This document shows positions 1 to 37,334 of a DNA stretch of 39,922 bases, piece after piece. Position 1 is the stretch's first letter; each line of letters opens with the position of its first letter. The notes under the pieces are model-generated. The model worked only from the letters and a program-made list of their open reading frames with translations. It did not search any database and was not told the origin of the DNA. This DNA comes from Minisyncoccota bacterium (GTDB lineage Bacteria; Patescibacteriota; Minisyncoccia; JAHIHE01; JAGLIN01), in contig JAGLIM010000018.1 of NCBI GenBank assembly GCA_023142995.1, positions 1 to 39,922 on the forward strand, given 5' to 3'. A program made the translations under genes and the position numbers.

Positions 1-1609
1 TTTCTTTAACGCTTAAACCAGGTTTAGAATCAAAATATTCAATTTTCTTTTCTAGATCTTTTCGTAATTCCTTAAAAGCTTTTCTTAAACTTAATTTAGC
101 TTCTTTAACTTCCTTATTAATTGCTTTATTTTCTTCTCTTCTTCGGTATAAAAGAATAAGAAGAAGAATTATAAAGATAATAATTGCCAAAAGTAATATA
201 AACGCTAATTGCCAAAAAGTAATAAGTAGTGGACCTATCATAACTCCACTTAATACTATTTTAATCTCTTTCTCTTGTGAAGAATCACTTATTGCCCCTC
301 TTTCATCTTTAGCTCTTGCTGAGAGCTTATAAGTCCCTTCTTTAAAAAGCTCCTCAGTTGAGAAAATCCAATGTCCGTCCTTATCACTTATAATTTCCCA
401 AGTTTTCACGATCTTATTATCTTTTTTAAAATCTAAAATAACAATTGCATTCGGAAACAATTTTCCTTCAATATACATAATTTCTTTTCCAGCATTATAT
501 ACAGGAGGATAAACTGTAATTTCTGGAATTTGAATTGACTTTATATCAACTACAATTGTAGAATCTTTCCTATTCCCACTTCTATCAACAGCTGTAACAG
601 TTACTTTGTACAAACCAGGAGATTGCAACGGCATAATAAATGGATTAATTTCCGTAGGCGTAACTGAAGAAATATGATTATCGTCAATTCCTATATCATA
701 ATGGCTTATACCAGAAAAATCATCTACTGCATCAAAGTATAAAGACGGACTTGGATTTGTTTTATCATCGCCATTATCAATTCTTATCTCAAAATCATTC
801 GGCGGACTAGCATCAATCTGAACTTTGAAATGAGATGTTTTGCTCCACCCATCATTATTTTTCACTCTTAAATGGAAATACCAGATCCCGTCTTCTATAT
901 TTTCATAACTTTTAAGATCAAAAATCCCTTCAGAAGTCGTATCTGGAATAGTAAGAGAATCATTATTGAATTCTATACTCCCTCCTATTAAACTAGGTAG
1001 CATCTTCCACGAAAAAGAAGGATTTTGGTTGCTATACCACTGATCTTGGTCAGAATGAGTTGTAGAATTAACTTCCACTATGGAAGGTTCTTTCTTCAGA
1101 GGAACATATGGTTTTGGAGGCTTAACCGTTCCTTTCTTGATTGAATAAGTCGCTCCGCTTCTTGAACTTAGAACATTTGTCCCTTTTCCATCAGCAGCTA
1201 ATACTACAGCACTTGAAAAGCTAACTTGTGCTTGACCTTCTCTTTTTGCAACAAAGTTTATGACTATACTAGTTCCTGTTCCTGAAAATCCAGGCGCTGT
1301 CATTCCTCCTGAAAAACTTACCACGCCAGAAGAATTTGAAAAAGTAGGCTCTTTTGTCCAAAGTTTTAGTACCGAACCACCTTTAGAGACACTTCTTACT
1401 TCCAGAATATCAGCAGGATAAACAATAGTTGCGTCAACTACATTAATCGCAGTTCCAGAACTATTCACTTTCACTGCCACAGAAAAGGATGACGAAACTG
1501 AATATTCCCTACTCCCAGGAGACAAATATAAAGACGCCCCTTCAGACTTAGCTGTCGGAAATACGCAAAAAAATAAAACTATTAAAATTGTATAAATGTA
1601 TCTTTTCAT
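1..1609 (-). CDS. Membrane-anchored cohesin-like surface protein, truncated at window start (C-terminus missing)
   Basis: Not in ORF track. ATG is the complement of 1607-1609; my manual reverse-strand translation is open to base 1: MKRYIYTILIVLFFCVFPTAKSEGASLYLSPGSREYSVSSSFSVAVKVNSSGTAINVVDATIVYPADILEVRSVSKGGSVLKLW... ADGKGTNVL..., then TTHSDQDQWYSNQNPSFSW, Ig-like region, TM segment and a charged tail (EENKAINKEVKEAKLSLRKAFKELRKDLEKKIEYFDSKPGLSVKE). Closely similar to the next two ORFs. Confidence 0.88.
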   Translation of the reverse strand, partial: MKRYIYTILIVLFFCVFPTAKSEGASLYLSPGSREYSVSSSFSVAVKVNSSGTAINVVDATIVYPADILEVRSVSKGGSVLKLWTKEPTFSNSSGVVSFSGGMTAPGFSGTGTSIVINFVAKREGQAQVSFSSAVVLAADGKGTNVLSSRSGATYSIKKGTVKPPKPYVPLKKEPSIVEVNSTTHSDQDQWYSNQNPSFSWKMLPSLIGGSIEFNNDSLTIPDTTSEGIFDLKSYENIEDGIWYFHLRVKNNDGWSKTSHFKVQIDASPPNDFEIRIDNGDDKTNPSPSLYFDAVDDFSGISHYDIGIDDNHISSVTPTEINPFIMPLQSPGLYKVTVTAVDRSGNRKDSTIVVDIKSIQIPEITVYPPVYNAGKEIMYIEGKLFPNAIVILDFKKDNKIVKTWEIISDKDGHWIFSTEELFKEGTYKLSARAKDERGAISDSSQEKEIKIVLSGVMIGPLLITFWQLAFILLLAIIIFIILLLILLYRRREENKAINKEVKEAKLSLRKAFKELRKDLEKKIEYFDSKPGLSVKE

Positions 1610-1630
1610 AAAAAATAAATTAGATCTCAA

Positions 1631-2914
1631 TTATAATCTTTCACTTCTTTCTAATTCCCTTCTCAATTGCTCTTCTTTTTCTCTTAATTCACATGAAACT
1701 TCCTGTCTATACTTTTTATCTCTTCTACAAAAAACGATTATAATCATTAAAATTAGAATTATCAAAATTAGAATTACAAGAAGAAAAGGCCACCATAACA
1801 TAAATTCTCCTTCATACCATAGTCCTTTTTTTGTGATTGATATTTCTTCTGGAATAATTTCTATTTTTATGTTTTCATCTTGCCAATTACCAGCCTTGTC
1901 ATAAGCCCTAACTATTATTATATAAGTACCGATTTCAAAATTTGAGAAAAGATATGGACTGCTTGCTTCAATAAAGAATGAGTCTTTTCCTTTATTTTCA
2001 ATTGCTATATCAACAACTTTTATTTCATAATGATCTATTCCAGAGAAAGCGTCAGTAGTTGAAAAAGATATAATAGGTTGCTTAGAATTTGTTTTTGGAG
2101 CAGGATCTATTTCGATTGCAAAAGATGCTGGATTTCCTTTATCTATTCTTACAAGAAAATGACTTGTCCCACCCCAAATTTCATTCTTCTTTGCTTTTAT
2201 GTGAAAATACCAAATCCCATCTTCAAGGTCAGAATATGAAACAGAGATTTCAGTTCCTTCTGATTGATTATCAGGCACTTCTAAAGGGTCATTATCAATA
2301 CTATAGCTAAATTCGCTTATACCATCTTCTTTTTCCCATAAAAAAGTTGGATTATTGTCTTTATGCCATCTATTTTGATCTGAATGCGTAAGAGAAAAAA
2401 CATCAGGACCTTCAGGAGGTAAAATCGCTATATTATAGATTCCTTTTCCATAAGAATTTAGAATATTAGTTCCTTTGCCATCATCAAGAAGAGTTTGAGA
2501 TGTATCAACTAAATATATTACAGTCTCTCCAGGATCAACTGCTCTGAAAGTAATCGTTGAGATCAAACCAGAAGATGTTTTTATCCCAGGAGAAGGAACT
2601 CCTCCCTGAAAACTCATATATCCTTCAACATTAGAAAAAGATGGAGGAACTGCCCATATTGAAATAAATGAGTTTCCAATAGTTGGATTTGCTATTTGGA
2701 TCTTTTTAGGATCAAACTTTAAATCAGCTCTTACGGCATTAATATTATTTTCTCCAGTATTAATGAATATTGAAACATCAAAAGTACTACCAATATTGAA
2801 AGTTCCACTATTTGGAGATAAATACAAAGAAGCACCAGATGCTTTAACATTAGACGTCTCAAAACAGAGTAATACTGAAAATATTATAAACAATAATGAG
2901 AAGAAAACTTTCAT
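1631..2914 (-). CDS. Membrane-anchored cohesin-like surface protein
   Basis: Signal peptide; ASLYLSPNSGTFNIGSTFDVSIFINTGENNINAVRADLKFDPKKIQI...DDGKGTNIL cohesin-like fold signature; HSDQNRWHKDNNPTFLW Ig-like segment; C-terminal TM (WWPFLLVILILIILILMIIIVFC) and charged cytoplasmic tail. Confidence 0.85.
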   Translation of the reverse strand: MKVFFSLLFIIFSVLLCFETSNVKASGASLYLSPNSGTFNIGSTFDVSIFINTGENNINAVRADLKFDPKKIQIANPTIGNSFISIWAVPPSFSNVEGYMSFQGGVPSPGIKTSSGLISTITFRAVDPGETVIYLVDTSQTLLDDGKGTNILNSYGKGIYNIAILPPEGPDVFSLTHSDQNRWHKDNNPTFLWEKEDGISEFSYSIDNDPLEVPDNQSEGTEISVSYSDLEDGIWYFHIKAKKNEIWGGTSHFLVRIDKGNPASFAIEIDPAPKTNSKQPIISFSTTDAFSGIDHYEIKVVDIAIENKGKDSFFIEASSPYLFSNFEIGTYIIIVRAYDKAGNWQDENIKIEIIPEEISITKKGLWYEGEFMLWWPFLLVILILIILILMIIIVFCRRDKKYRQEVSCELREKEEQLRRELERSERL

Positions 2915-2922
2915 ATCTATTT

Positions 2923-4089
2923 TTATTTTTTGTTTCTTTTTCTAAATAATTTAAGAAATATCCAAGTGATCGTTAGTATTAAAAAAAGAGATAAAATAGG
3001 GGAAAACCGCTGTGAATTAGATGTCCTTTTAACAGGAGAAATTTCATATTCTTTTTCATTTCCAGCTTTATCAACAGCTTTTATTTTGATCATACTTCCT
3101 AGTCCTTGATCTTCAAGCAGATATGGACTAGAAACCTCTTTCCAATCAATTTCATTCTTTATTTTTTGAAATTGTTTTTTCTCTTTAGTTTCCACTATCT
3201 TATAACGATCAATACCTGAAGTTCTATCTTCTGCTCTAAATACCAAATATTTTTTTCCTTCAATTTCTGTGACTTGAGCAAAAAGTTTTTCAGGACTTGT
3301 CACATCAATCATCGCTCTAAAAGTGATCTTTTGCGAGTATTCTTCATTTTGAAGTTTCTCTCTTAGATGAAAATAATATATTCCGTCTTCAAGACCTTTA
3401 TACGACATAGAACCCATCCAAACTAAATCACCTTCTGGCTTATCCGCGATCGTATCAGGCACAACCAAAGAATCTTTACCTATAAGATAACTATACTCAG
3501 CATTTTTGATCAAGTCCCAATGAAGACTAAAATGATCATCATTATACCATTTATTTTCATCAGGATGACTGTTAGACACGATCTTAATAAAACTTTTTTG
3601 TTTTTCAATAATATTACAATTATTTTCTATAATATTCACATCATCTTTTGTTCCTTTCCCATCATTTAAAAATATTTCTGTTTGAGAAAAATCTAATTGG
3701 CAATCCCCTTCATTTTTTGTCTTAAATATTATTTTAAGTACTAATTCACTTCCTTTATATCCATTCGGCACCCCTCCTGAAAATTTAATCAAACCTTCCA
3801 CATTTGAAATAATTGGTTCTTCTGTCCATAATTTTATAATTGATTCTCCTTTTATTATATCAATAACCTCTAAAACATCTGGATTAAAAGTTATTTCCGA
3901 TCTTACAACATTTATATTTTTGTCTTTAGTGTCTATATAAACATTTTTTATAAACGTATCGTTATTATGATATTGAAGGTTTTGTGGAATAAAAAAAACA
4001 TCAGAAGCTTTAGCAACAAAAGGAGCTACCATAAAAAGAATAAAGAAAATTGCGATAAAAAATATTTTTTGCATTATTTTTATTTTCAA
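2923..4089 (-). CDS. Membrane-anchored cohesin-like surface protein (third paralogue)
   Basis: Signal peptide; DVFFIPQNLQYHNNDTFIKNVYIDTKDKNINVVRSEITFNPDVLEVI...NDGKGT; SHPDENKWYNDDHFSLHW; TM and short basic tail FRKRNKK. Confidence 0.83.
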   Translation of the reverse strand: MKIKIMQKIFFIAIFFILFMVAPFVAKASDVFFIPQNLQYHNNDTFIKNVYIDTKDKNINVVRSEITFNPDVLEVIDIIKGESIIKLWTEEPIISNVEGLIKFSGGVPNGYKGSELVLKIIFKTKNEGDCQLDFSQTEIFLNDGKGTKDDVNIIENNCNIIEKQKSFIKIVSNSHPDENKWYNDDHFSLHWDLIKNAEYSYLIGKDSLVVPDTIADKPEGDLVWMGSMSYKGLEDGIYYFHLREKLQNEEYSQKITFRAMIDVTSPEKLFAQVTEIEGKKYLVFRAEDRTSGIDRYKIVETKEKKQFQKIKNEIDWKEVSSPYLLEDQGLGSMIKIKAVDKAGNEKEYEISPVKRTSNSQRFSPILSLFLILTITWIFLKLFRKRNKK

Positions 4090-4118
4090 TTATTAGATCT
4101 ACACTTATTATAAAATCT

Positions 4119-5432
4119 TTAATTCGTCCAATGATACATCATAATACTAAAATCAATTAAATTAACTTTTCTGTCAGAATTTATATCAGCGCAAATATTA
4201 GATGGATTAGATTGTTCCCAAAAATAAAGTAGTATTGAAAAATCAATTAAGTTGACCTTGCTGTCAAAATTTAGATCCGCTCCTTGACAAGGTCTCTCTT
4301 CTCCTTCTTTTAACACCTTAAAATTTAAACTTTGTGAAAAAATAGAAATTTCTGAGTCAGGAGATACTGCTTTTGAACGAGCGCTATGATCTCCTCCTTC
4401 AATAACAGAAGTATCTAAAGCAAGGAGCCATCCCCCATCATCGCTAGCTATTACTTTTTCAACAATTTCTGAGTCAGAATTTATAAAAACATTTACTTCA
4501 CTCTTGGGATAAGTATAACCAAAAATATTCAGTATTTCCCCTTTGGCAAGAACAGTGGTATCCAGGTCAATAGTCGGTGGCAAGAATAAACCAGAAAAAG
4601 TAGTAATTGTGCCAGCAGTTAATGATGCAGTAAAACTCATAGTCAAAGATTTTCTTCCATCTTTATCTTCTGACCATAAGCTGAAAGTTCGAATTCCAGC
4701 AGGCAAACCAGTAAGAGTAGATTCAAAATTTGCCGAAGGATCAGCATTAACAGTAGCTGCAATATTGCCGTCTTTTAGAATAGTAACATAAGCTCCTGGA
4801 TATGCCTTACCTTTAAGGACCACAGAAGCAAAGCCGACTGGAATGATCTGTCCTCCTCCTCCGCTAGGAGGAGTAGTAGTTGAATCAACAACAGATGCTG
4901 ATACATTAATACCCTGACCAACGATAACAATCGAAGCAATACCATAGTCAACCTGTGCCAGACATCCAATATCAGAATAGGTTTGTACTCTTGTAAAGAA
5001 ATTACCACTAACTATCGGATTTGTAATACTTGAAAATTCCATAGAAACATTTAACGCAGGATTTTCTCCAAGAGCGTTTATTAAATTCAAAGATCCATTA
5101 GAAGTATTATTAAACACCCATAATGCATTAGTCAAACCAACGGAATTATCAAAAGAAGAAGCTGTGCTATTTAGACCAGTAGGCGTCGTACATCCACCAT
5201 TTGGAGTGGTACAAAATAGAACTTTAATGCAACGCAAAGTATTTACAGAACCTGACCAAGAAAGTGAGTGTACTGCACTGACTCCTTCACGAGAATCAGA
5301 AACAGTATCGCTGAAACTAAAAAATTGTATTGCCTTTGTCGGCAAAAAAGAAAAAGTAAAAATTATCACAGAAAAAAATATTGTAAAAAGAAATTTAAAG
5401 TGGAGATTATTATTATTTTTCTTAGTATTCAT
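4119..5432 (-). CDS. Secreted protein with C-terminal duplicated type I-like dockerin
   Basis: Signal peptide; C-terminus GADLNFDSKVNLIDFSILLYFWEQSNPSNICADINSDRKVNLIDFSIMMYHWTN holds two EF-hand-like 12-residue loops (DLNFDSKVNLID, DINSDRKVNLID), each followed by a short helix, as in dockerins. Confidence 0.9.
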   Translation of the reverse strand: MNTKKNNNNLHFKFLFTIFFSVIIFTFSFLPTKAIQFFSFSDTVSDSREGVSAVHSLSWSGSVNTLRCIKVLFCTTPNGGCTTPTGLNSTASSFDNSVGLTNALWVFNNTSNGSLNLINALGENPALNVSMEFSSITNPIVSGNFFTRVQTYSDIGCLAQVDYGIASIVIVGQGINVSASVVDSTTTPPSGGGGQIIPVGFASVVLKGKAYPGAYVTILKDGNIAATVNADPSANFESTLTGLPAGIRTFSLWSEDKDGRKSLTMSFTASLTAGTITTFSGLFLPPTIDLDTTVLAKGEILNIFGYTYPKSEVNVFINSDSEIVEKVIASDDGGWLLALDTSVIEGGDHSARSKAVSPDSEISIFSQSLNFKVLKEGEERPCQGADLNFDSKVNLIDFSILLYFWEQSNPSNICADINSDRKVNLIDFSIMMYHWTN

Positions 5433-5503
5433 CTTAATATTATAACATATTTACTTTGAATTATAAAATGTTCGTTTTTAGATTATTAGACATAATAAAT
5501 CAG

Positions 5504-5560
5504 ATAATATCGTTCAACTGCCATAATATTGTTCAATTGCCATAATATTGTTCGACTTTT
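5504..5560. repeat. About 3 tandem 19-bp units (ataatattgttcaattgcc-like)
   Basis: ataatatcgttcaactgcc / ataatattgttcaattgcc / ataatattgttcgactttt at 5504, 5523 and 5542. Confidence 0.85.
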
Positions 5561-5637
5561 TATGGAGAACTCTACGGTAAATATTGTTCGACTTTATGGA
5601 AAACTGTGTGTGTATGGCCTTCTTCTCCACAAGGTCG

Positions 5638-5703
5638 AAGAATATTTGTTGGTTAAAGAATATTTGTTGGTTAAAGAATATTTATTGGTTAAAGAATATT
5701 TGC
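5638..5703. repeat. About 3.7 tandem 18-bp units (aaagaatatttgttggtt)
   Basis: Units at 5638-5654, 5655-5672, 5673-5690 and a partial unit 5691-5703. Confidence 0.9.
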
Positions 5704-5809
5704 ATAAAAAAACAGGCACATTTCAAAAGAACCATCCAAACTATTTGAATGATCTTTGAAAAAATTATAACACACCCCAACCCCTCTGGAGAGGGAAATT
5801 ATTTGGGAA

Positions 5810-6760
5810 TCATTGTGGATGATGTTCGCCTTTAAATAGTATTCCAAGCGCCATTTTCCATCGTTTTTTGGTCTTGAAAAAGAAAACAGTAGCAAATAGC
5901 AAAATAAGGGAAACTCCAAGCATTATTTTCCATGGTAGAACCCAAAATGTTATTACCCGTGGTTCAAAAGGAATATTTCCTGTGCCATAATTTCCAACCA
6001 CAGTAGCTGTATATTTTCCAAAAAGCCATTTTGTGTCCCACATCGCATCATTTTTCCTGATTGCTCCTGGAAGAACGTTTTTTTGTGAAAATTCAATTTC
6101 CGTTACCTTTTTGCCAAATAAATCAGTAACAACTACAAATCCCCTCGGTCTAACATGAACTGTACCAGTATTTTCAAATTTAATTTCAAATGGAACTGGA
6201 CCATATTCTGAGAAAGAAGGAGCTGAAAAGTCACTAACTCTAAGTTCCTCGCTCAAATCTCCAGATACCATCAACAAAACAAGTGCACCAGTCTTCGTAG
6301 CAATAGCAGCACCTGTTCCTTCATTTGACACAGAACCACTTATCCCTGCTAAAATTGATCCATATTTCCCACCTGGCTCAGCATTTTCAGGAATTTCAAT
6401 TATAAAATCAACTACTTTTTCTTTTCCTGGTTCTAATGTGAATTCAACAGGAATCGTTATAATCCATTTACGAAGAGAATATGTCGTATCCTCATCGCTT
6501 TCAGAAGTAGTAACAACTTTACCTTCTTCACCAACCGCCCGAAAATCTTCTGCTTCTATTCTTATTGAAACTATTTTATCAGTAGGATTATATATTTTTA
6601 TTTTATTATTAATAACATCACCTGGATTTGCTGTTAATTCAAAAGTTAAAGGAGAAATAGTAACACCACTTCCTACATTTTCTTGAGCAAAACTAATATT
6701 TACACACAAAAAACAACCCAAAATAATCAATCCTAAAATAACTTTTTTCATATAATCCAT
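5810..6760 (-). CDS. DUF916/WxLIP-like membrane-anchored surface protein
   Basis: Signal peptide; SGVTISPLTFELTANPGDVINNKIKIYNPTDKIVSIRIEAEDF...RKWI...FTLEPGKEKVVDFIIEIPENAEPGGKYGSILAGI; C-terminal FWVLPWKIMLGVSLILLFATVFFF TM and basic tail. Confidence 0.7.
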   Translation of the reverse strand: MDYMKKVILGLIILGCFLCVNISFAQENVGSGVTISPLTFELTANPGDVINNKIKIYNPTDKIVSIRIEAEDFRAVGEEGKVVTTSESDEDTTYSLRKWIITIPVEFTLEPGKEKVVDFIIEIPENAEPGGKYGSILAGISGSVSNEGTGAAIATKTGALVLLMVSGDLSEELRVSDFSAPSFSEYGPVPFEIKFENTGTVHVRPRGFVVVTDLFGKKVTEIEFSQKNVLPGAIRKNDAMWDTKWLFGKYTATVVGNYGTGNIPFEPRVITFWVLPWKIMLGVSLILLFATVFFFKTKKRWKMALGILFKGEHHPQ

Positions 6761-6811: not shown

Positions 6812-7918
6812 TTAATATGATGGTGTAGCAACAAAAACAACAGTTGTAGAATACGAACCAGCAGCAGTAGTTGCCAAAATTTCCGCATTCATTTCAACAT
6901 CAACTGTTCCACCAGAAATTCCTGCAGCTGTAGAAGCAAAAAGTAAATTACCAGTAGTAACAGCCAGATCAGATACAGTATCATGATCAAACCCTTCATC
7001 AATAGTCATATTGCTAGCACTAGCATAAACTGCGAACCCTTCAACATCCAGTGTAGTTATATCAGTTGAGGAATCAGCGGGAATTTCTGCTGCCGCTGTA
7101 GTAGAATATAATCCAGCAGAATCATTCGAATTTATACTTTTTACTGTAATTGACACACCATCACCTGCATTTGATGAAACTTGAAGTTGTGTTGGATCAT
7201 CTACACCAGCTGGTGCAGGAGTAAAAGTACCATTTCCATCAGATGTAGCCCAACGAGTAGCTACACTTCCACCTGTCCAAGATCCAAAACCAACAGCATT
7301 ATCAGCTTCAGTTGAAGAAAAGGTGATATATTCATCAACAGTCGCAGTAACTGCAATTCCAGAAAGAATCACAACTCTAGTAGTTCCAGTAGCATAATTA
7401 TTAGTACCACCAAGAGTAATAGTGTAAACCGCTGCTCCAGGATTTGGTAATTTATCAGAAACATTAGCAAAAACTATTCTTACAAATGGATTTGCAGCTA
7501 ACTTCGTAACACCAGTACCTGTCCATGTAAAAGTATAAACAGGATTTAAACCAGCAGAATTAGAAAATGTATAATCAGCAGTTTGCGTCATAGCTGTTCC
7601 GTATGTAGTTCCATCAGAACCAACAGTCATGGTAAAATCTGTAACCGCAGAGGCGTTAGCACCCTGAGTAAACCCAGTGAATGTAAATGTTTGAGTATCC
7701 CCATTAGCCAAAGTACCTTCATTATTATATTCAAATTGTATTGTATGATTCGCATATTCACCTGGTCTTGAGTCAGACAAAGCATCACTAATTCCTGAAC
7801 CAGCAACCGCAGCTGCATCAGAATCATTGATATTAACGACTGAATAAGAGAACACCAGCGTAAACATACAAACTAACGCTATGAACTTCTTACTTATTTT
7901 TTTTATTTTTTGTGCCAT
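6812..7918 (-). CDS. Secreted beta-rich surface protein with SDxxSDSRxG head motif and C-terminal AGSYSTTVVFVATPSY motif
   Basis: Signal peptide; low-complexity Ala/Thr/Gly-rich sequence; head motif ISDALSDSRPGEYANHTIQF and tail motif shared with other proteins in this window. Confidence 0.8.
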   Translation of the reverse strand: MAQKIKKISKKFIALVCMFTLVFSYSVVNINDSDAAAVAGSGISDALSDSRPGEYANHTIQFEYNNEGTLANGDTQTFTFTGFTQGANASAVTDFTMTVGSDGTTYGTAMTQTADYTFSNSAGLNPVYTFTWTGTGVTKLAANPFVRIVFANVSDKLPNPGAAVYTITLGGTNNYATGTTRVVILSGIAVTATVDEYITFSSTEADNAVGFGSWTGGSVATRWATSDGNGTFTPAPAGVDDPTQLQVSSNAGDGVSITVKSINSNDSAGLYSTTAAAEIPADSSTDITTLDVEGFAVYASASNMTIDEGFDHDTVSDLAVTTGNLLFASTAAGISGGTVDVEMNAEILATTAAGSYSTTVVFVATPSY

Positions 7919-8129: not shown

Positions 8130-9635
8130 TTATCTCTTTATTAAAACTTTTATTGCTTTTCTTATTCTCTTCCTTATCAGAATGAAAATGGCTAATATAA
8201 AAACAACTATCAAAAACAGTTTCCATGGGAATATCCAAAATTCAATTTCTTCTTCTGTGGTTACATCCTCTATATTAAGCGTTAACAAAGCACGATATTT
8301 CCCAAAAAATAGATTTTTTGAAATAATATTTGATAGTGGACTCGGCAATTTTTGAACTATTTTTGGAATTTCTGGACTAATATCCACTGGAATCTGGCGA
8401 GTTTTTCCTGGCAAGATCGTTGTTTTTTTAATCTCTGTTTCTCCTATTATCTTCCCACTATTTGATAGAACCACCAACTTTCCAAAAGGTTTGATATGAT
8501 AAGTATCATTATTTTTAATATGCAAATTAAATTGAAGCTCGCCTGCTTTGACAACAGAAAAAGTCTTTATTGTCTCAGCATAAGCTGTAGAGAATAGACC
8601 AGTAATATTGATCACAGAATCTTCAATTCTTTTGAGATGAAACTTTTCTGGAATGCTAAACTCGCTGATAGTCAAAAAATTGTTATCTATTGGCTTCTTT
8701 CTATCGCCGATAGAGATTAGAAGTAGTGTTCCTATCTTCTGCACAACACTAACACCACTTTCATCCTGATGAAGATCTCCAGAAGAAAAAACTTTTGGTT
8801 CAAAGAAAATTACCGTATAGTATCCTCCATCTTCTGCATTTTCTGGAACAGAGATAGTAAATTTAGTATTTACGGTTTCTTCTGGATCCAAAATAAAATT
8901 CGGTTTTTCAATTTCTATCCATTTGCGCGAATTAAATAAAATATCATCTTCTTGGTCAGACTGAAAATCATCATAAAAAACCGCTGTCCCAGAAATCTCT
9001 TCCGCGTCAAAATTTGAAACTACCGCCTCCATCGGCATAGCCATTCCTCCTTTATTATATATTTTTATTTTTCCATTATAAACCTCACCTTTTTCAAATT
9101 GTAATTCAAATATCTCCGGAGAGATCATTAACCTAACTTGGTCATTGGCTTTCGTTGAAATAGGAGATAGTAATCCTATACTTATGAAATAGAAGCAGAT
9201 CAACGCGGATATCAACGCGGATTTATGCAGAGATACTTCTCTTGCTTTGTCGTAGATTCTTCGTTTGATTTCTAATTTTTTTGATCCGAAATTTATTAGA
9301 AAACCTAATTTATAATTAGAGGCTTTTAGATAGCGCCAAAATTGTTTATCATCTTCTTTTGTAATAAAAGGCTTTACTTTTAATTCAATTAAAATCTTTT
9401 CATCAACAATAATATCAGGAATGTATGTTCCTATCTTTTCACCACGATGCATAATATTAATTCGCTTTTGATTTTCAATATTTAATCCTTTGTGTTTTAA
9501 CTCAGAAACCAAAGCTTTATTTATAATAATTTCTTTAAAAGCTCCTCCAAATTTTTTATATAAGTCAAAACAAGCTCCCCTAATACTATAGGATTCTTTT
9601 TCATACAATAAATTTTCTCCGTTTTCCGTTGCCAT
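8130..9635 (-). CDS. In-frame fusion: N-terminal GxxExxY-family (PD-(D/E)xK-like) domain joined to DUF916/WxLIP-like membrane protein
   Basis: N-terminus YEKESYSIRGACFDLYKKFGGAFKEIIINKAL...YIPDIIVDEKILIELKVK...NYKLGFLINFGSKKLEIKRRIY is GxxExxY-like; from ANDQVRLMISPEIFELQFEKGEVYNGKIKIYNKGG it parallels 5810..6760, including C-terminal FWIFPWKLFLIVVFILAIF. Confidence 0.8.
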   Translation of the reverse strand: MATENGENLLYEKESYSIRGACFDLYKKFGGAFKEIIINKALVSELKHKGLNIENQKRINIMHRGEKIGTYIPDIIVDEKILIELKVKPFITKEDDKQFWRYLKASNYKLGFLINFGSKKLEIKRRIYDKAREVSLHKSALISALICFYFISIGLLSPISTKANDQVRLMISPEIFELQFEKGEVYNGKIKIYNKGGMAMPMEAVVSNFDAEEISGTAVFYDDFQSDQEDDILFNSRKWIEIEKPNFILDPEETVNTKFTISVPENAEDGGYYTVIFFEPKVFSSGDLHQDESGVSVVQKIGTLLLISIGDRKKPIDNNFLTISEFSIPEKFHLKRIEDSVINITGLFSTAYAETIKTFSVVKAGELQFNLHIKNNDTYHIKPFGKLVVLSNSGKIIGETEIKKTTILPGKTRQIPVDISPEIPKIVQKLPSPLSNIISKNLFFGKYRALLTLNIEDVTTEEEIEFWIFPWKLFLIVVFILAIFILIRKRIRKAIKVLIKR

Positions 9636-9717: not shown

Positions 9718-12700
9718 TTAATATTCCGCCGTAATGACGTAGACAATCGTTGTAGAATAAGCTCCTGGTCGTTGAGTATCTAAGGCTGAAATTCTATAAG
9801 TTATATCATAATCTTCTCCACTAATAGGACCACCATAATCCATAACCCTGATTGGGCTTGAAGAATCTTCAGAGAATCCAGCAAATGCCGTTCCGTTATT
9901 ATAACGATTAGCACTTTCAACATCAGCATCGCTAGATGTAAAACCAAATCCACATTGACCGCTACCAATACAAGTCCCTCCCCAAGCAGTAGGAGTAGTA
10001 TAATTTCCAGGCCAGTTGATAATATTAACTGCTGGAAAATCATTATGCGTCATTTTTTTCGTTTCCCATGCCGTAACTATATATCCATTAGTTGCAGAAG
10101 TAGAAACAGTTATTTTGGTCTTGGTTGCAGCAGTATTGGTAAAACTGTTTCCAGAATTCAAATTTGCAAAAGTAATGTCCGTTCCTGAAATTGCCACATC
10201 AAGACCAACAATCATTCCAACATACCATGAACCTTGGGTTGGCGGATTATTTACTCCGTCATATTCTTTTGATCCATTGATCGTTCCAGCAGAGGATCTA
10301 TACCATCCAACTCCTATCGTATCGTCATCAGTAGCATCGTCTGAACAAGCACTTGTTGTACCAGCCAAACAAGAAGTTAAATAGTTCTCTCCATAATCAT
10401 CATAATAATTATACTGTCCATAACTTGATTGCCAAGCTACATCTAAATTATACTTGTATAGAGTACATCCCGCTCCAGGACAAGTAGCGCTGACTGTCAT
10501 ACTATATTCTCTAACTCTAATCGCACCAGTATTTGTTATTTGAGCATTAATACCATTACTTGGGCCATTACAAGCAGCACCTGTTCCTGTTGTTTGAGAA
10601 GCAGCTGAAGCACCCCAACCACTATTATATCTCCAGACCATTAGTGCTGAATTGGCCTCAGAAATTGTGATATCACTGCATCCTGTATCAATATTTATTA
10701 GTGTATCAGCAGCGTTAACTGTATGAACACCAGCATACCAATCAACGTTTAATATTCCTCCTGTCACAGAAACTGGTCCTGTTTTGGCATTAAAATATGT
10801 CAGAGTTCCAGCTTGAACAGTGGTTTGATTTGGAAGAGCTACAGCTCCATCCTGATATAACCAACTGCCAGAACCATTGAAAGTAATATTATAAAAAGCG
10901 TCTCCACCATCAGCAATTGTGTGAGAACCAGACCCGTCAAAAGTCGCCGTTCCAGAGTTATTATTAAAGGTTCCTGAATTAGAAAAGTTTCCAGCCAAAG
11001 TAAAAGAAGCTGCTGCTGTACCAATTGGAGAAGTAAAAGTACCAGTATTATTAATGGTTAAGTTTCCATCGATATTCAAAGTGGCAGTAGCAAGATCAGA
11101 ATTAGTAAAAGTTGCACCAGCAGAAACAATAGCATTGCCAATAATACTAATATTTGGATCATTTGTCACTGCACTAACCGTCACTGCGTCAGACCCATTA
11201 CCAACAGTAAAATTGCCACTAGTAGTAACAGTTTGAGAAGCAGCTGTTCCCAAGGTATAAGTTGGAGAACCTGCAGTCGGTGCCAGTTCTAAATGATAAT
11301 ATGTTTCTTCTTCAATCTCTGTAGCCGAAGTTCCAGTGAATTTAACTGTGGAGCTTGTACCTTCTCCAAGTCCGGAAGCATTATTGACAATAAATGGCCT
11401 GGAACCAGCTGTTCCTGATCCGGAAATTGTCAGCGTATATCCGGAAGAAGCTAATCCCAAAATATCATCAGCTCCAACTGTTATGCTAGTAGCTTGAACT
11501 GAAGAAATCAGATTGACTGTCTTTGTCGTACCATCGATCACAACAGTTCCCAGGTCATCAATCGTCGCCGCATTATTCCAGGTCACCGGCGTAGTGGTTC
11601 CATCGAAAGTAAATGTTCCAGATCCACTGGTAAAGTTTCCACTGGCTCCAATTGAAAGGTTGCCTTCTAGAGTAATATTATTAGCACCCTGTCCCAGTGT
11701 TCCATAGTCAATAGTTAAATTACCATCCACATCCAAAGCGGAACCCAAATCCCAGGTTGCAGTGCCACTCCCAGTGCCCAAAACTAAATTATTAAAGGTG
11801 GCAGTTGAGGCACCAGTAGAATTAATTGCCTTTGTATCACTGGTAGCATCAAAAGTAACTGTTGAAGTGGCAGCAGTGAATGTTCCAGAATTTACCCAGC
11901 TTCCGGAAACAGTAATAGATTCCGAACCAGTGGCAGTATAAATTCCCGGTATTTTTATGTCATCTACCGTAACATTTCCTCCAGGAGTAAAAGTATCTCC
12001 GCCCAAAATATAAAGTTCATGACCATCATTAACAGTAAGTAGATCCGGAGTACTATCGTCAGCAGTGAATTGTATATCATTATCGTTGACAAAATCGAAG
12101 CTATTCAGATTATCAATCGTCATCGGACCTCCGTCCTCGTGTCGAATGATTACATGGTTTTGATAGAGATCAGCAGTAATACCAGATGTTGTATCTGCTG
12201 CTTTGGTAACTGTGGTGGCATAGACCGAACCGCTTCCGTTCTCGTTGACAAAGATTGTTACTACATCACTGGCGTTACTGATAGTTACATTAGCGATACT
12301 GAAAGCTCCGGTATTTGCAACACATTCAGCAGTGTAGGACCCTGCACCATTTACTCGAGCATCAATAGTTAGATTACCAGTGGTTGAACAAAGATAAGCG
12401 GTAGAACCTTCATCAGAATAGATAAAGCCGTCGATAGTGATACCAGAACTTGAATCATCCCATTGTAACATTCCAGGATCAGCTTCATTCACTCCATCAT
12501 CACCATCATTGGCTTCACCATCAAACGCTCCGGTGGAAGTATCAAAATCCCAATGACCAGTATCATTTGCTCCGGTACGATTGACATTGAATTCTGCCCC
12601 AGTTCCAGTGTTATCAAAATTCACTCCAGTAATAGTCTTACTTCCTGAACCGATTACAGTTGAAGCTACTGTAATAAAAGCATCTGCTGTCCCAGCCGTA

Positions 12701-15700
12701 CCCACCAAATTGTCAAAATCAGTGTTATCCAGACTAGTCACAGTTGATCCTCCTTGAATGTCAATTCCCAAGGCGCCGTCCAGATAGTCAAAGTCAGTAT
12801 GTTGAAAATCGATGGTTCCACCACTCAAACAAGATATTTCATAACCATTGGAAGTGCCTTGACGAGAAATTGTAGTTCGGTTTCCAGAAACTCCAACAGC
12901 AGCCAAAGTGTCACCAGAGTCAACCGTAACTTTCGCTGCCGGATCAATTCGCACATCCACTTGCCGAGCACTGGCTGCATTATCAAAATCGTTGGCGTAA
13001 CTCCAATAATCATTAGTATTTACGTGATAATCGCCCCAGATATACAAGTCTCCGGCAACATTAGCATGATCCTGAGAATAAAGTGAACCGGAAGCATCAA
13101 CTGTATAGGCAGTAGCCGCCGAAGATTCCCACATTCTAATGTCAGTATTGGCACCAATCTGAAGAGTGGCATAGGCTTCAGCATTTTGGGCTTTACTTCC
13201 CACCGTATAAGCTGTGCCTGAGTTTAAATATAACGTAGCCGAGGTCCAAGTGGTATTAGAAGTCTCCGCATCAGCAATACTGTAAGTTCCTTGTACCTCG
13301 GTTGTCACAGAATTAACTGTGAATCCAGAAGCAGCTGTGTCGGTGATGGTGAAATTGTGAGTGGCCGTCAAATTGTTGGTTTGGATGGTCCAGCCACCGT
13401 CACTGTTGTTAAATTGAATATCATAAAAATCTTTAGTTGAGCCTGTTCCACCACTGTCAATCGTTTCTCCAGTATCACCTGAATCAAATAACACTAATCC
13501 CGATCGGGCAGTAAATTCATCAGCATTTGACCAGGAACCGCCAACAGTAATTTGATTATTCTCTCCAGAAACCGTATCCAATGCTCCATTGGTAATTGTC
13601 ACATCATTATCTACATCTAAAGGGTCTTGAACCTGTATGATAATTCCAGTTCCTCCATCAATAACAAGATTATAGAGAGAGAAAGCGCCATCAGTAATCA
13701 AAGTGTTAGTACCTGCGCCATCATCAAACTCAACTGTTGACTCGTCCTGAACAAAAGTAGCTGTGGAACTGAGATTAAAATCATTTGCCGTATTCATATA
13801 CGTTGCATCAGTATCGTTACCAGAGCACTTTCCATCTCCCGAAGCAGAAGTATCTAAAACTCCACTAATTTGAATTCCTCCATTACCAGCATCTAGATCG
13901 TACCGACATGTATAAAGACCATCACCAGCACTAACTGTTATAGTATTAGCAGACATATCACTTGTAAGTATGGTATCAGCTGGAGATTGGCCTATTACTA
14001 CCTCGCCCAATGTAACACCAGCGACTGCATAAAATATTGTTGGGTTATCATTCAAAACAAAATCTGCAGTCAAACTAGGTGTTATACTCCCACCATTAAT
14101 TTTAAAATTTCCAGTTCCAATATCATCACCAAAGATCATAGTCGGATTGTTTGTGTTCAAATCCAACGCCCCATCTGTTAAGGTAAAATCCGCATTAACT
14201 GTCATATTCACCGTAGGTCTAAAAGTGGCGCTACCACCGGCATCGTTAAATACAACTGAATTAAACGCAGAAGCACCAGGATTAATTATTGGCGTTCCGG
14301 TAGTAGCGGAAAATGTAACCGTGCCGGTTCCCGCAGCAAAAGAGCCTGAGTTAACCCAATTGCCACCAACATCTATTGAATTATTATTTGAGTCAAGTGT
14401 AGCAGAGCTATCTATGGTTACATTATCTACAATTAACGAATCTTGAATGTCAATATGGGTACTCGCAGTAGAAATTTGAATATTCCCCAAATCATTACCG
14501 CTAGAAGTTAAATTTTGCGTCGTACCACTATTAAATACCATCGTAGATCCCGATACTTTACCAAAGTTACCGCTTGCGCCTATACTTAATGCTCCTGTGA
14601 TATTGACATTATTAGTACCATTCTGTGTTAAAGTACCGTAATCTATTGAAAGATTACCACTTATATCTAATGTAGAACCAAGCGTCCAGTTTGCAGTACC
14701 TGACCCTAAACCAAAAGTAAGTGCATTAAAACCAGCAACTGTAGCTCCTGTAGAATCTATTGATTCTGTACCTGAAATAGCATCAAAAGTTACTGTTGAG
14801 CTAGCGGCAGTAAAGGTACCAGAGTTAACCCAACTTCCGGAAACAGTGATTGATTCCGAACCAGTAGCTGTATAAGTACCAACTATCTTAATATCATCCA
14901 CCGTAACATTACCGCCTGGAGTGAAAGTGTCTCCTGTCAAGACATAAAATTCTTGGCCATCATCAACGACCAAAGTGTCAGGAGTACCACTAGTAGCAGT
15001 AAAAAAAACATTCTCATTATTGCCTTTATCATAATTATCCATATCATCAATAGTAAGTACCCCACCATTATCATGTCTAGCAATTACATGGTTTGTGTAA
15101 AGATCAAGACCAGTTAAATTATTTCCGTCAGATTCCGTTACTGTCACTGCTTTTTCCGATTCGCCATCAATATAGACAGTAACAATATCTCCGGCACTAG
15201 CACTTACTCCAGTGAAAGAAAATGATCCATTAGACGGGCTATTAGAGCACTCTACCGTATCTGCACCAGTTCCATTGACTTTTAACGAAACCGTCCGACT
15301 AGTAGTACAGTCTAAACCAGTCGTTCCCTCGTTAGTAAAAATACGACCAGAAAAATCAGGAGAAACTGCAACAGGAGCATTTACTACACAGCCGAGAGTG
15401 GAACTAACATCAGCAGTGGCAATTAGATGATTAGCAGTAGCAATTGTTTCACTTGTTGTTGTTGCAGCGTCTCTTATTGTCACAGTACCTGACATAGGCG
15501 ACAAAGGTGTTGTGCTAACTTCTGTCCAACCGGTAGCAGCACTAGAAAAAGGCTCTACATTAACACCACAAAAGACAACCACCCTTCCATCTGCTGTGCT
15601 TGTACTCCATGAAGGTGTAGGAACATTAGTAGAAGCAGGATCAGCACCACCTATTCCCGAAACTGAATCAATTGGATTAGAAGAATCAAATTCTCCTGCT

Positions 15701-16212
15701 GGAACTTTAATAACCTTACCAATCCACTCTTCATCCTTATAAATTGTCCACATTTGTGTTCCCGCACTTCTTGCCTCGGTTCCCACAAACCACATACCTG
15801 CAACTCCAGGACTATCTCTATGACCAGAGTCTCCCGAACCAATGATTGTTCTTGTTTCTCCATTAGGTCCAGTAGTTGCAGGTGTAATAGCGTCATCATC
15901 ATCACACGTCATAAACATAATTATTAGATCTCCTGCTACATAAGCCGAATAGCCGATATAAGGCTCTCCTGTCGTTGCACCACTTGAGCTTGTAACATCC
16001 CCCGCTTCAATCACCGGCGCGTCCGACGCAATCTGCCATTGGCGAATTTCTTCAAAAACCAATTTGGGTTCGTTCCCTATTGTTTTGTCTGTATTATATT
16101 TATTTACAGCCAACACAAAACCTCCAGCAATTGCTAGAATAGAGAAGATTATGATTAGTTTTTTAATGCGAGAACTGGTTTGCAACCAGTTCTTTTTGTT
16201 TTGAAGATTCAT
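9718..16212 (-). CDS. Giant (2164 aa) repeat-containing surface protein with C-terminal GAYSTTIVYVITAEY motif
   Basis: N-terminal TM (LIIIFSILAIAGGFVLAV), EEIRQWQIASDA motif, many beta-rich repeats (VSGSWVNSGTFTA..STVTF), tail motif shared with 6812..7918. Confidence 0.85.
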   Translation of the reverse strand: MNLQNKKNWLQTSSRIKKLIIIFSILAIAGGFVLAVNKYNTDKTIGNEPKLVFEEIRQWQIASDAPVIEAGDVTSSSGATTGEPYIGYSAYVAGDLIIMFMTCDDDDAITPATTGPNGETRTIIGSGDSGHRDSPGVAGMWFVGTEARSAGTQMWTIYKDEEWIGKVIKVPAGEFDSSNPIDSVSGIGGADPASTNVPTPSWSTSTADGRVVVFCGVNVEPFSSAATGWTEVSTTPLSPMSGTVTIRDAATTTSETIATANHLIATADVSSTLGCVVNAPVAVSPDFSGRIFTNEGTTGLDCTTSRTVSLKVNGTGADTVECSNSPSNGSFSFTGVSASAGDIVTVYIDGESEKAVTVTESDGNNLTGLDLYTNHVIARHDNGGVLTIDDMDNYDKGNNENVFFTATSGTPDTLVVDDGQEFYVLTGDTFTPGGNVTVDDIKIVGTYTATGSESITVSGSWVNSGTFTAASSTVTFDAISGTESIDSTGATVAGFNALTFGLGSGTANWTLGSTLDISGNLSIDYGTLTQNGTNNVNITGALSIGASGNFGKVSGSTMVFNSGTTQNLTSSGNDLGNIQISTASTHIDIQDSLIVDNVTIDSSATLDSNNNSIDVGGNWVNSGSFAAGTGTVTFSATTGTPIINPGASAFNSVVFNDAGGSATFRPTVNMTVNADFTLTDGALDLNTNNPTMIFGDDIGTGNFKINGGSITPSLTADFVLNDNPTIFYAVAGVTLGEVVIGQSPADTILTSDMSANTITVSAGDGLYTCRYDLDAGNGGIQISGVLDTSASGDGKCSGNDTDATYMNTANDFNLSSTATFVQDESTVEFDDGAGTNTLITDGAFSLYNLVIDGGTGIIIQVQDPLDVDNDVTITNGALDTVSGENNQITVGGSWSNADEFTARSGLVLFDSGDTGETIDSGGTGSTKDFYDIQFNNSDGGWTIQTNNLTATHNFTITDTAASGFTVNSVTTEVQGTYSIADAETSNTTWTSATLYLNSGTAYTVGSKAQNAEAYATLQIGANTDIRMWESSAATAYTVDASGSLYSQDHANVAGDLYIWGDYHVNTNDYWSYANDFDNAASARQVDVRIDPAAKVTVDSGDTLAAVGVSGNRTTISRQGTSNGYEISCLSGGTIDFQHTDFDYLDGALGIDIQGGSTVTSLDNTDFDNLVGTAGTADAFITVASTVIGSGSKTITGVNFDNTGTGAEFNVNRTGANDTGHWDFDTSTGAFDGEANDGDDGVNEADPGMLQWDDSSSGITIDGFIYSDEGSTAYLCSTTGNLTIDARVNGAGSYTAECVANTGAFSIANVTISNASDVVTIFVNENGSGSVYATTVTKAADTTSGITADLYQNHVIIRHEDGGPMTIDNLNSFDFVNDNDIQFTADDSTPDLLTVNDGHELYILGGDTFTPGGNVTVDDIKIPGIYTATGSESITVSGSWVNSGTFTAATSTVTFDATSDTKAINSTGASTATFNNLVLGTGSGTATWDLGSALDVDGNLTIDYGTLGQGANNITLEGNLSIGASGNFTSGSGTFTFDGTTTPVTWNNAATIDDLGTVVIDGTTKTVNLISSVQATSITVGADDILGLASSGYTLTISGSGTAGSRPFIVNNASGLGEGTSSTVKFTGTSATEIEEETYYHLELAPTAGSPTYTLGTAASQTVTTSGNFTVGNGSDAVTVSAVTNDPNISIIGNAIVSAGATFTNSDLATATLNIDGNLTINNTGTFTSPIGTAAASFTLAGNFSNSGTFNNNSGTATFDGSGSHTIADGGDAFYNITFNGSGSWLYQDGAVALPNQTTVQAGTLTYFNAKTGPVSVTGGILNVDWYAGVHTVNAADTLINIDTGCSDITISEANSALMVWRYNSGWGASAASQTTGTGAACNGPSNGINAQITNTGAIRVREYSMTVSATCPGAGCTLYKYNLDVAWQSSYGQYNYYDDYGENYLTSCLAGTTSACSDDATDDDTIGVGWYRSSAGTINGSKEYDGVNNPPTQGSWYVGMIVGLDVAISGTDITFANLNSGNSFTNTAATKTKITVSTSATNGYIVTAWETKKMTHNDFPAVNIINWPGNYTTPTAWGGTCIGSGQCGFGFTSSDADVESANRYNNGTAFAGFSEDSSSPIRVMDYGGPISGEDYDITYRISALDTQRPGAYSTTIVYVITAEY
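11632..12440 (-). repeat. Internal module duplication, copy 2
   Basis: Encodes GFIYSDEGSTAYLC...GDTFTPGGNVTVDDIKIPGIYTATGSESITVSGSWVNSGTFTAATSTVTFDA...LSIGASGNF, parallel to 14565-15357. Confidence 0.8.
14565..15357 (-). repeat. Internal module duplication, copy 1
   Basis: Encodes SGRIFTNEGTTGLDC...GDTFTPGGNVTVDDIKIVGTYTATGSESITVSGSWVNSGTFTAASSTVTFDA...LSIGASGNF. Confidence 0.8.
16171..16193. repeat. Perfect 10-bp-arm hairpin (agaactggtt-tgc-aaccagttct) within the start of the 2164-aa ORF
   Basis: Direct inspection; encodes part of NWLQTSS on the minus strand. Confidence 0.9.
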
Positions 16213-36845: not shown

Positions 36846-37334
36846 TTATTCTGCCACTAATGGATCTCTCCCCGAATCAATTTCATTCTTATCGCTAAAT
36901 CCGTCACCATCTGTATCATATTTTTCAGGATCAGTTCCTGCATTTTTTTCATCAACATCACCTAGCCCATCATTATCAGAATCCAACTGTCCTGTCCCTA
37001 ATGGATCATATCCACTCTCAACTTCTTGCCCATCAGAATAATCATCACCATCTGTATCAAAATCAAGCGGATCTGTTTTCCACTTTTTCACTTCATCAAA
37101 ATCATTCAATCCATCATTATCTGTATCAGATTTATTAATATCCGTTCCTAATTTTTCTTCTTCTAAGTCAAATAGACCGTCATTGTCTGTATCAACATCT
37201 TTAACTTCTTTTTGTTTTTCTGTTTTCGGCAATTCTTTTTCCGTCTCCTTTTCTACTTTCTTAATTGAACATCCTGAAAAAGAAAGAACAGTGATTAATA
37301 ATAATGTTAAAATAATTATTTTATTGTTTTTCAT
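36846..37334 (-). CDS. Lipoprotein with thrombospondin type 3-like Ca-binding repeats
   Basis: Lipobox LSFSGCS; DTDNDGLFDLEEE...DTDNDGLNDFDE...DTDGDDYSDGQE...DSDNDGLGDVDE...DTDGDGFSDKNE. Confidence 0.92.
   Translation of the reverse strand: MKNNKIIILTLLLITVLSFSGCSIKKVEKETEKELPKTEKQKEVKDVDTDNDGLFDLEEEKLGTDINKSDTDNDGLNDFDEVKKWKTDPLDFDTDGDDYSDGQEVESGYDPLGTGQLDSDNDGLGDVDEKNAGTDPEKYDTDGDGFSDKNEIDSGRDPLVAE

Follow-up and report, generated by a model that had tools for sequence, protein, structure and literature searches.

The window analysed here, a stretch of 39,922 nucleotides, is the start of contig C10 in the 1.48-Mb genome of a Minisyncoccota bacterium, and its first 5,432 positions carry a candidate cohesin-dockerin system. 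Four open reading frames (ORFs) lie there on the minus strand, as do all features of the set given below. In the order of transcription, they encode a secreted protein ending in a dockerin, followed by three cohesin proteins designated C, B and A. The gaps between these genes are 29, 8 and 0 bp, and the four genes probably form one operon. A search for promoter-like sites gave 41 hits against 36 expected from shuffled sequences, i.e. no excess. A scan of the whole genome found three cohesins, all of them in this region; Pfam assigned one cohesin to each protein, and no multi-cohesin scaffoldin was found in the window. A preliminary description of the locus had confined the unit to positions 1-5432. 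This boundary is too narrow, as the conserved gene set reaches upstream to at least 6760 and takes in a WxLIP-like gene at 5810-6760.

The first gene (4119-5432) codes for a protein of 437 amino acids, delineated by its ORF, hydropathy, Pfam (Big_6 and Dockerin_1, both over the cut-off) and AlphaFold2 (AF2). It consists of a signal peptide, an N-terminal surface domain, two immunoglobulin-like (Ig-like) domains, the first of which was located by Pfam (Big_6, 4626-4823), and a C-terminal dockerin. Hydropathy analysis revealed no transmembrane (TM) anchor. The type I dockerin module (4122-4286) passes the Pfam cut-off (Dockerin_1, PF00404, 27.5 versus 22.9), is recovered by its profile with an E value of 2e-29 and matches solved dockerins in the PDB, up to 1.5e-11 with the dockerin alignment. 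Its two Ca-loop-helix repeats, DLNFDSKVNLIDFSILLYFW at 4218-4277 and DINSDRKVNLIDFSIMMYHW at 4128-4187, are both complete, with D1, N3, D5 and D12 in a D-x-N-x-D...D ligand pattern, and the AF2 model contains helices at residues 395-403 and 425-435. The loops had been described as near-identical; their sequences are exactly as quoted and agree at 14 of 20 residues. This symmetry is compatible with a dual binding mode, which from the sequence is possible. The proposed secreted dockerin protein beside the receptors was confirmed. For the whole protein the AF2 model has a mean predicted local distance difference test (pLDDT) score of 69, the N-terminal domain lying mostly below 50-55.

The three cohesin proteins were delineated by ORF, Pfam and hydropathy, and each has an N-terminal signal-like segment, as does the dockerin protein, and a C-terminal TM segment. 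Receptor C (2923-4089, 388 amino acids) is of the first-gene class, with its cohesin domain at 3568-4011 (alignment and profile), a TM segment at 2944-3000 and a tail of 6 residues. Receptor B (1631-2914, 427 amino acids) is of the middle class and has a cohesin domain at 2417-2839 (AF2 and Foldseek), a TM segment at 1730-1786 and a 32-residue tail. Receptor A (2-1630) represents the last-gene class. Its cohesin domain (1127-1543) scores over the Pfam cut-off, and its TM segment (152-208) is followed by the start of a conserved cytoplasmic tail (2-151; hydropathy and tail comparison), of which 50 residues could be read. The preliminary description had presented all three as tandem receptors with signal peptide, cohesin, an HSDQxxW segment, TM segment and cytoplasmic tail. 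The ORFs, cohesins, signal-like segments and TM segments stand, but C reads HPDENKW in place of HSDQxxW and has no real cytoplasmic tail because just 6 residues follow the TM segment, and the C-terminus of A is missing because the gene runs off the contig end.

With the Pfam Cohesin model (PF00963, cut-off 24.1), A scored 26.6 and C, weakly, 15.3; B reached 23.0 as a protein and 25.5 in the scan of the genome. An alignment of 38 cohesin domains that spans A, B and C matched solved type I and type II cohesins (best 3.5e-5). A profile of C-type sequences only gave weak PDB matches (best 0.013), those listed being cellulosomal cohesins and the cohesin-like module of NagJ. For the domain of B, AF2 returned a model with a pLDDT of 96.5 and a predicted template modelling score (pTM) of 0.89. 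Cohesins made up 49 of the 50 PDB matches that Foldseek listed for this domain, many of them from cohesin-dockerin complexes and some, such as 2xdh from Archaeoglobus fulgidus and 2vo8 from Clostridium perfringens, non-cellulosomal. The cohesin fold supposed at the outset was thus recovered, for B by predicted structure and for A and C by alignment only.

In the survey of related genomes that the preliminary description had suggested as a check, the two modules travel together. In profile searches of 384 genomes of the class, 153 (about 40%) had a cohesin, 147 a dockerin, 136 both and 220 neither; 17 had a cohesin only and 11 a dockerin only. A listed dockerin lies within 6 kb of 130 of the 150 cohesins listed, and the cohesin is downstream in the sense of transcription in 129 of these 130 pairs, the sole exception being a cohesin-dockerin fusion (locus L091). 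Co-occurrence and adjacency are far beyond chance. Cohesins are also found in many genomes from other Patescibacteria classes, where the association is looser (about 262 genomes outside the class: both 69, cohesin only 31, dockerin only 14). Relatives in named genomes belong mostly to Parcubacteria/Paceibacterota (Nealson-, Portnoy-, Kaiser-, Kerfeld-, Wildermuth- and Taylorbacteria), and some to Microgenomates and WWE3. The anatomy of the set was read from 103 distinct loci. The usual order is an optional WxLIP-like membrane protein, the dockerin protein and 1 to 6 cohesin proteins, most often two, and a cohesin gene follows the dockerin gene directly in 85 of 95 cases, with a median gap of 12 nt. 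The dockerin modules have a common DFSI[LM][LM]YxW-like signature, and their carriers usually combine the common Ig pair and dockerin with a differing N-terminal part. Natural cohesin-dockerin fusions occur at L091 (2562-3296), L196, L197, L198 and L199; L198 has two tandem fusions and then a plain cohesin, reminiscent of an adaptor chain. In L200 and L201, from other classes, five to six dockerin-bearing proteins stand in a row; tandem fusions, too, are among the layouts seen outside the class.

We regard it as likely that the set, which is conserved in Patescibacteria, is an operon for surface display through non-cellulosomal cohesin-dockerin docking, in which secreted, adhesin-like cargo is captured by membrane receptors. 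Starting from the genes, their order and domains, the cohesin fold, the co-occurrence and covariation of the modules and the absence of enzymes, we infer the following course of events. The dockerin protein would be secreted, and the cohesin domains of the membrane-anchored receptors from the same operon would capture its C-terminal dockerin, which is probably Ca-loaded when it docks. Its lineage-variable N-terminal part, an exchangeable Ig/Fn3 adhesin, would then be held on the cell's own surface. The displayed part is most likely an adhesin or an envelope building block, and the WxLIP-like membrane protein probably helps to tie the assembly to the wall. Docking in cis is the simplest reading, since the dockerin protein is unanchored, the cohesins are anchored, the genes form one probable operon and the modules travel together. 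A role in adhesion is suggested by the Ig/Fn3 content and by the precedent of anaerobic methanotrophic (ANME) archaea and sulfate-reducing bacteria. In ANME archaea as well as in their bacterial partners, cohesin/dockerin proteins are expressed, and a function in the partnership has been proposed for them (PMC10553843); Patescibacteria are mostly host-dependent (PMC13293708). Therefore, one could also envisage docking in trans, where receptors on one cell bind the dockerin proteins of a sister or partner cell and mediate cell-cell contact. Yet ligand and receptors form one tight cluster in the 85 of 95 cases mentioned above, and the dockerin protein itself is unanchored; self-capture is the simpler explanation, and we consider docking in trans unlikely.

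The two modules also appear to covary. Of 229 cohesins, 211 have Trp62 on strand 5, and at loci where the dockerin lacks the D-x-S-[IVML] motif this residue is mostly absent as well (79/4/1/6, p=2e-6). L070, L077 and L110, for example, combine DFNxLMxNW dockerins with SWxxxAQxGYD cohesins. Since few lineages are involved, this covariation is suggestive only. Several points weigh against the display of a docked adhesin. The strands predicted to bind the dockerin (3, 5, 6 and 8) show no excess conservation over the other strands (p=0.66), and in the 17 cohesin-only genomes of the class no dockerin was detected. The counts for co-occurrence and covariation take genomes and loci as independent and ignore kinship. 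For the fold of the N-terminal domain thought to be displayed, Foldseek on the AF2 model gave generic Ig/Fn3-like matches only. The lack of special conservation on the dockerin face and the weakness of C as a cohesin (15.3 with Pfam, 0.013 with the profile against the PDB) would fit another explanation, according to which the cohesin-fold domains do not bind the dockerin. They would instead be beta-sandwiches for adhesion or sugar binding, with the dockerin acting as an end cap stabilised by Ca, and the genes would be co-located only as parts of one surface layer. On the other hand, strict joint presence, covariation of the modules and fused forms all point to the two modules themselves, which renders this explanation quite unlikely.

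Cellulosomes are typically recognised by cohesin and dockerin modules, and in surveys that cover genomes of the candidate phyla radiation (CPR) these count as polysaccharide functions (PMC7038595). The one other dockerin found in the genome, a sub-threshold match on another contig, is part of a protein that also has CBM96 and Ig-like domains. A polysaccharide-degrading machine of the cellulosome type is nevertheless highly improbable. Among the families listed, the 82 dockerin carriers scanned have no catalytic domain but Ig/Fn3-type domains instead, a multi-cohesin scaffoldin is lacking in the window, and the CBM96 protein has no cohesin nearby and is devoid of the D-x-S-I motif. The cellulosome was rejected as no carbohydrate-active enzyme of these families occurs in the carriers, in agreement with the initial view that the locus probably does not serve polysaccharide breakdown.

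Non-cellulosomal cohesin-dockerin pairing is of an already known kind. The cohesins of A. fulgidus (2xdh) and C. perfringens (2vo8, 2jh2) have the same fold and act outside cellulosomes; those of C. perfringens, however, belong to glycoside hydrolases, whereas the receptors of the present set are Ig-like TM proteins with one cohesin each, and no enzyme accompanies them. The cell-surface anchoring cohesins of Clostridium thermocellum (for example OlpA and OlpC; 3ul4, 4dh2) match in fold. There, too, a dockerin protein is captured by an anchored protein with one cohesin, as proposed here. These cohesins are cellulosomal and anchored to the wall via SLH, in contrast to the TM anchoring, non-enzymatic cargo and cytoplasmic tail found here. 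The cohesin-dockerin adhesins known from ANME archaea and from sulfate reducers living in syntrophy are likewise non-cellulosomal, with adjacent cohesin and dockerin genes and a proposed surface role. These are other organisms, and the accessible parts of the reports do not describe a fixed dockerin-cohesin-cohesin operon with a conserved receptor tail (PMC10553843, PMC5244752). Animal TMEM132 proteins also combine cohesin and Ig domains and are described as adhesion molecules (PMC6030884), but they are eukaryotic, have no dockerin partner gene and are likened here by domain description. For the operon, its phylum-wide spread, the receptor classes and the tail we found no description in Patescibacteria in the open-licence literature, which is weak evidence. 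For host attachment in this group, attention has mainly gone to type IV pili (PMC13293708), and what cohesins and dockerins do outside cellulosomes has been called unknown (PMC5244752). If binding holds true, the set would offer a docking system outside cellulosomes that is compact, abundant and testable, and would supply many cohesin-dockerin pairs. It would also be a warning against reading such domains in CPR genomes as a sign of cellulose degradation.

Across the loci, the cohesin proteins fall into classes according to their position. The first protein of a set is short (median 321 amino acids) with a 9-residue tail; the last has a median of 563 amino acids and an 81-residue cytoplasmic tail (interquartile range 78-84). 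A C-terminal TM segment was predicted by hydropathy for 196 of 216 cohesin proteins. A tree of the cohesin domains, which is based on few columns and has many unresolved forks, requires 5 label changes to separate the first from the last type if middle-type domains are disregarded; including them raises the number to 16, against 81.5 after shuffling of the labels. Conserved in the long tail is a charged motif, probably helical, that ends in KEIkDIEkE. In view of this conservation, a role in signalling or cytoplasmic tethering is worth considering. One might go further and regard the set as a phylum-wide contact-sensing apparatus, in which contact of an exchangeable docked adhesin with a host or partner is signalled inward by the last receptor, through its conserved tail of about 81 residues. 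In that case, cohesin parts would have been used to build a bacterial adhesion receptor, a scenario that we consider unlikely. Two last-gene proteins (L063:3206-4480, minus strand; L065:5505-6779, plus strand) have the Ig domains, TM segment and conserved tail without a recognisable cohesin.

Directly upstream of the dockerin gene, and in this position in 39 of 79 cases, lies a conserved neighbour of the set, the gene for a WxLIP/DUF916-like single-TM protein (5810-6760; assigned by PF06030, adjacency and TM segment). The protein passes the DUF916 cut-off (PF06030, 28.3 versus 27.3) and has a C-terminal TM segment at residues 279-297 with a conserved basic KTRKRW tail. No match to the second domain, DUF3324 (PF11797), was obtained, a relative scoring 17.0 against a cut-off of 28.9, and a profile of the WxLIP-like proteins found no convincing match in the PDB. 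WxL/WxLIP clusters of Firmicutes (PMC10599100) likewise have a DUF916-like protein with a C-terminal TM segment beside large secreted surface proteins; DUF3324 and a recognised WxL domain were not found here, and dockerin and cohesin genes are added in our set. The comparison is a likeness and not a membership, as the DUF916 model passes and DUF3324 and WxL do not. The next gene (6812-7918) encodes a secreted surface protein whose C-terminal end is WxL-like; its membership in the set is unsure. A WxL-domain partner was not identified in the cluster, the neighbours having no Pfam match and a WxL-like C-terminal pattern only. The secreted proteins encoded at 6812-7918 and 9718-16212 (minus strand), one of 2164 amino acids, adjoin WxLIP-like genes and have a common ending, GxYxTxxxYxxTxxY, that recalls the ends of WxL domains; neither has a Pfam match. 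A second WxLIP-like protein (8130-9635, minus strand) carries an N-terminal in-frame fusion to a GxxExxY/PDDEXK_3 domain, which precedes the signal-like segment. The L063 orthologue (11203-12294) is devoid of this domain, which may be an inserted mobile ORF. The intergenic region 5433-5809 upstream of the dockerin gene contains short tandem repeats of AACCAACAAATATTCTTT-like and GAACAATATTATGGCA-like units. Further away, a small lipoprotein-like ORF (36846-37334, minus strand) consists of DxDxDGxxD Ca-binding repeats similar to thrombospondin type 3.

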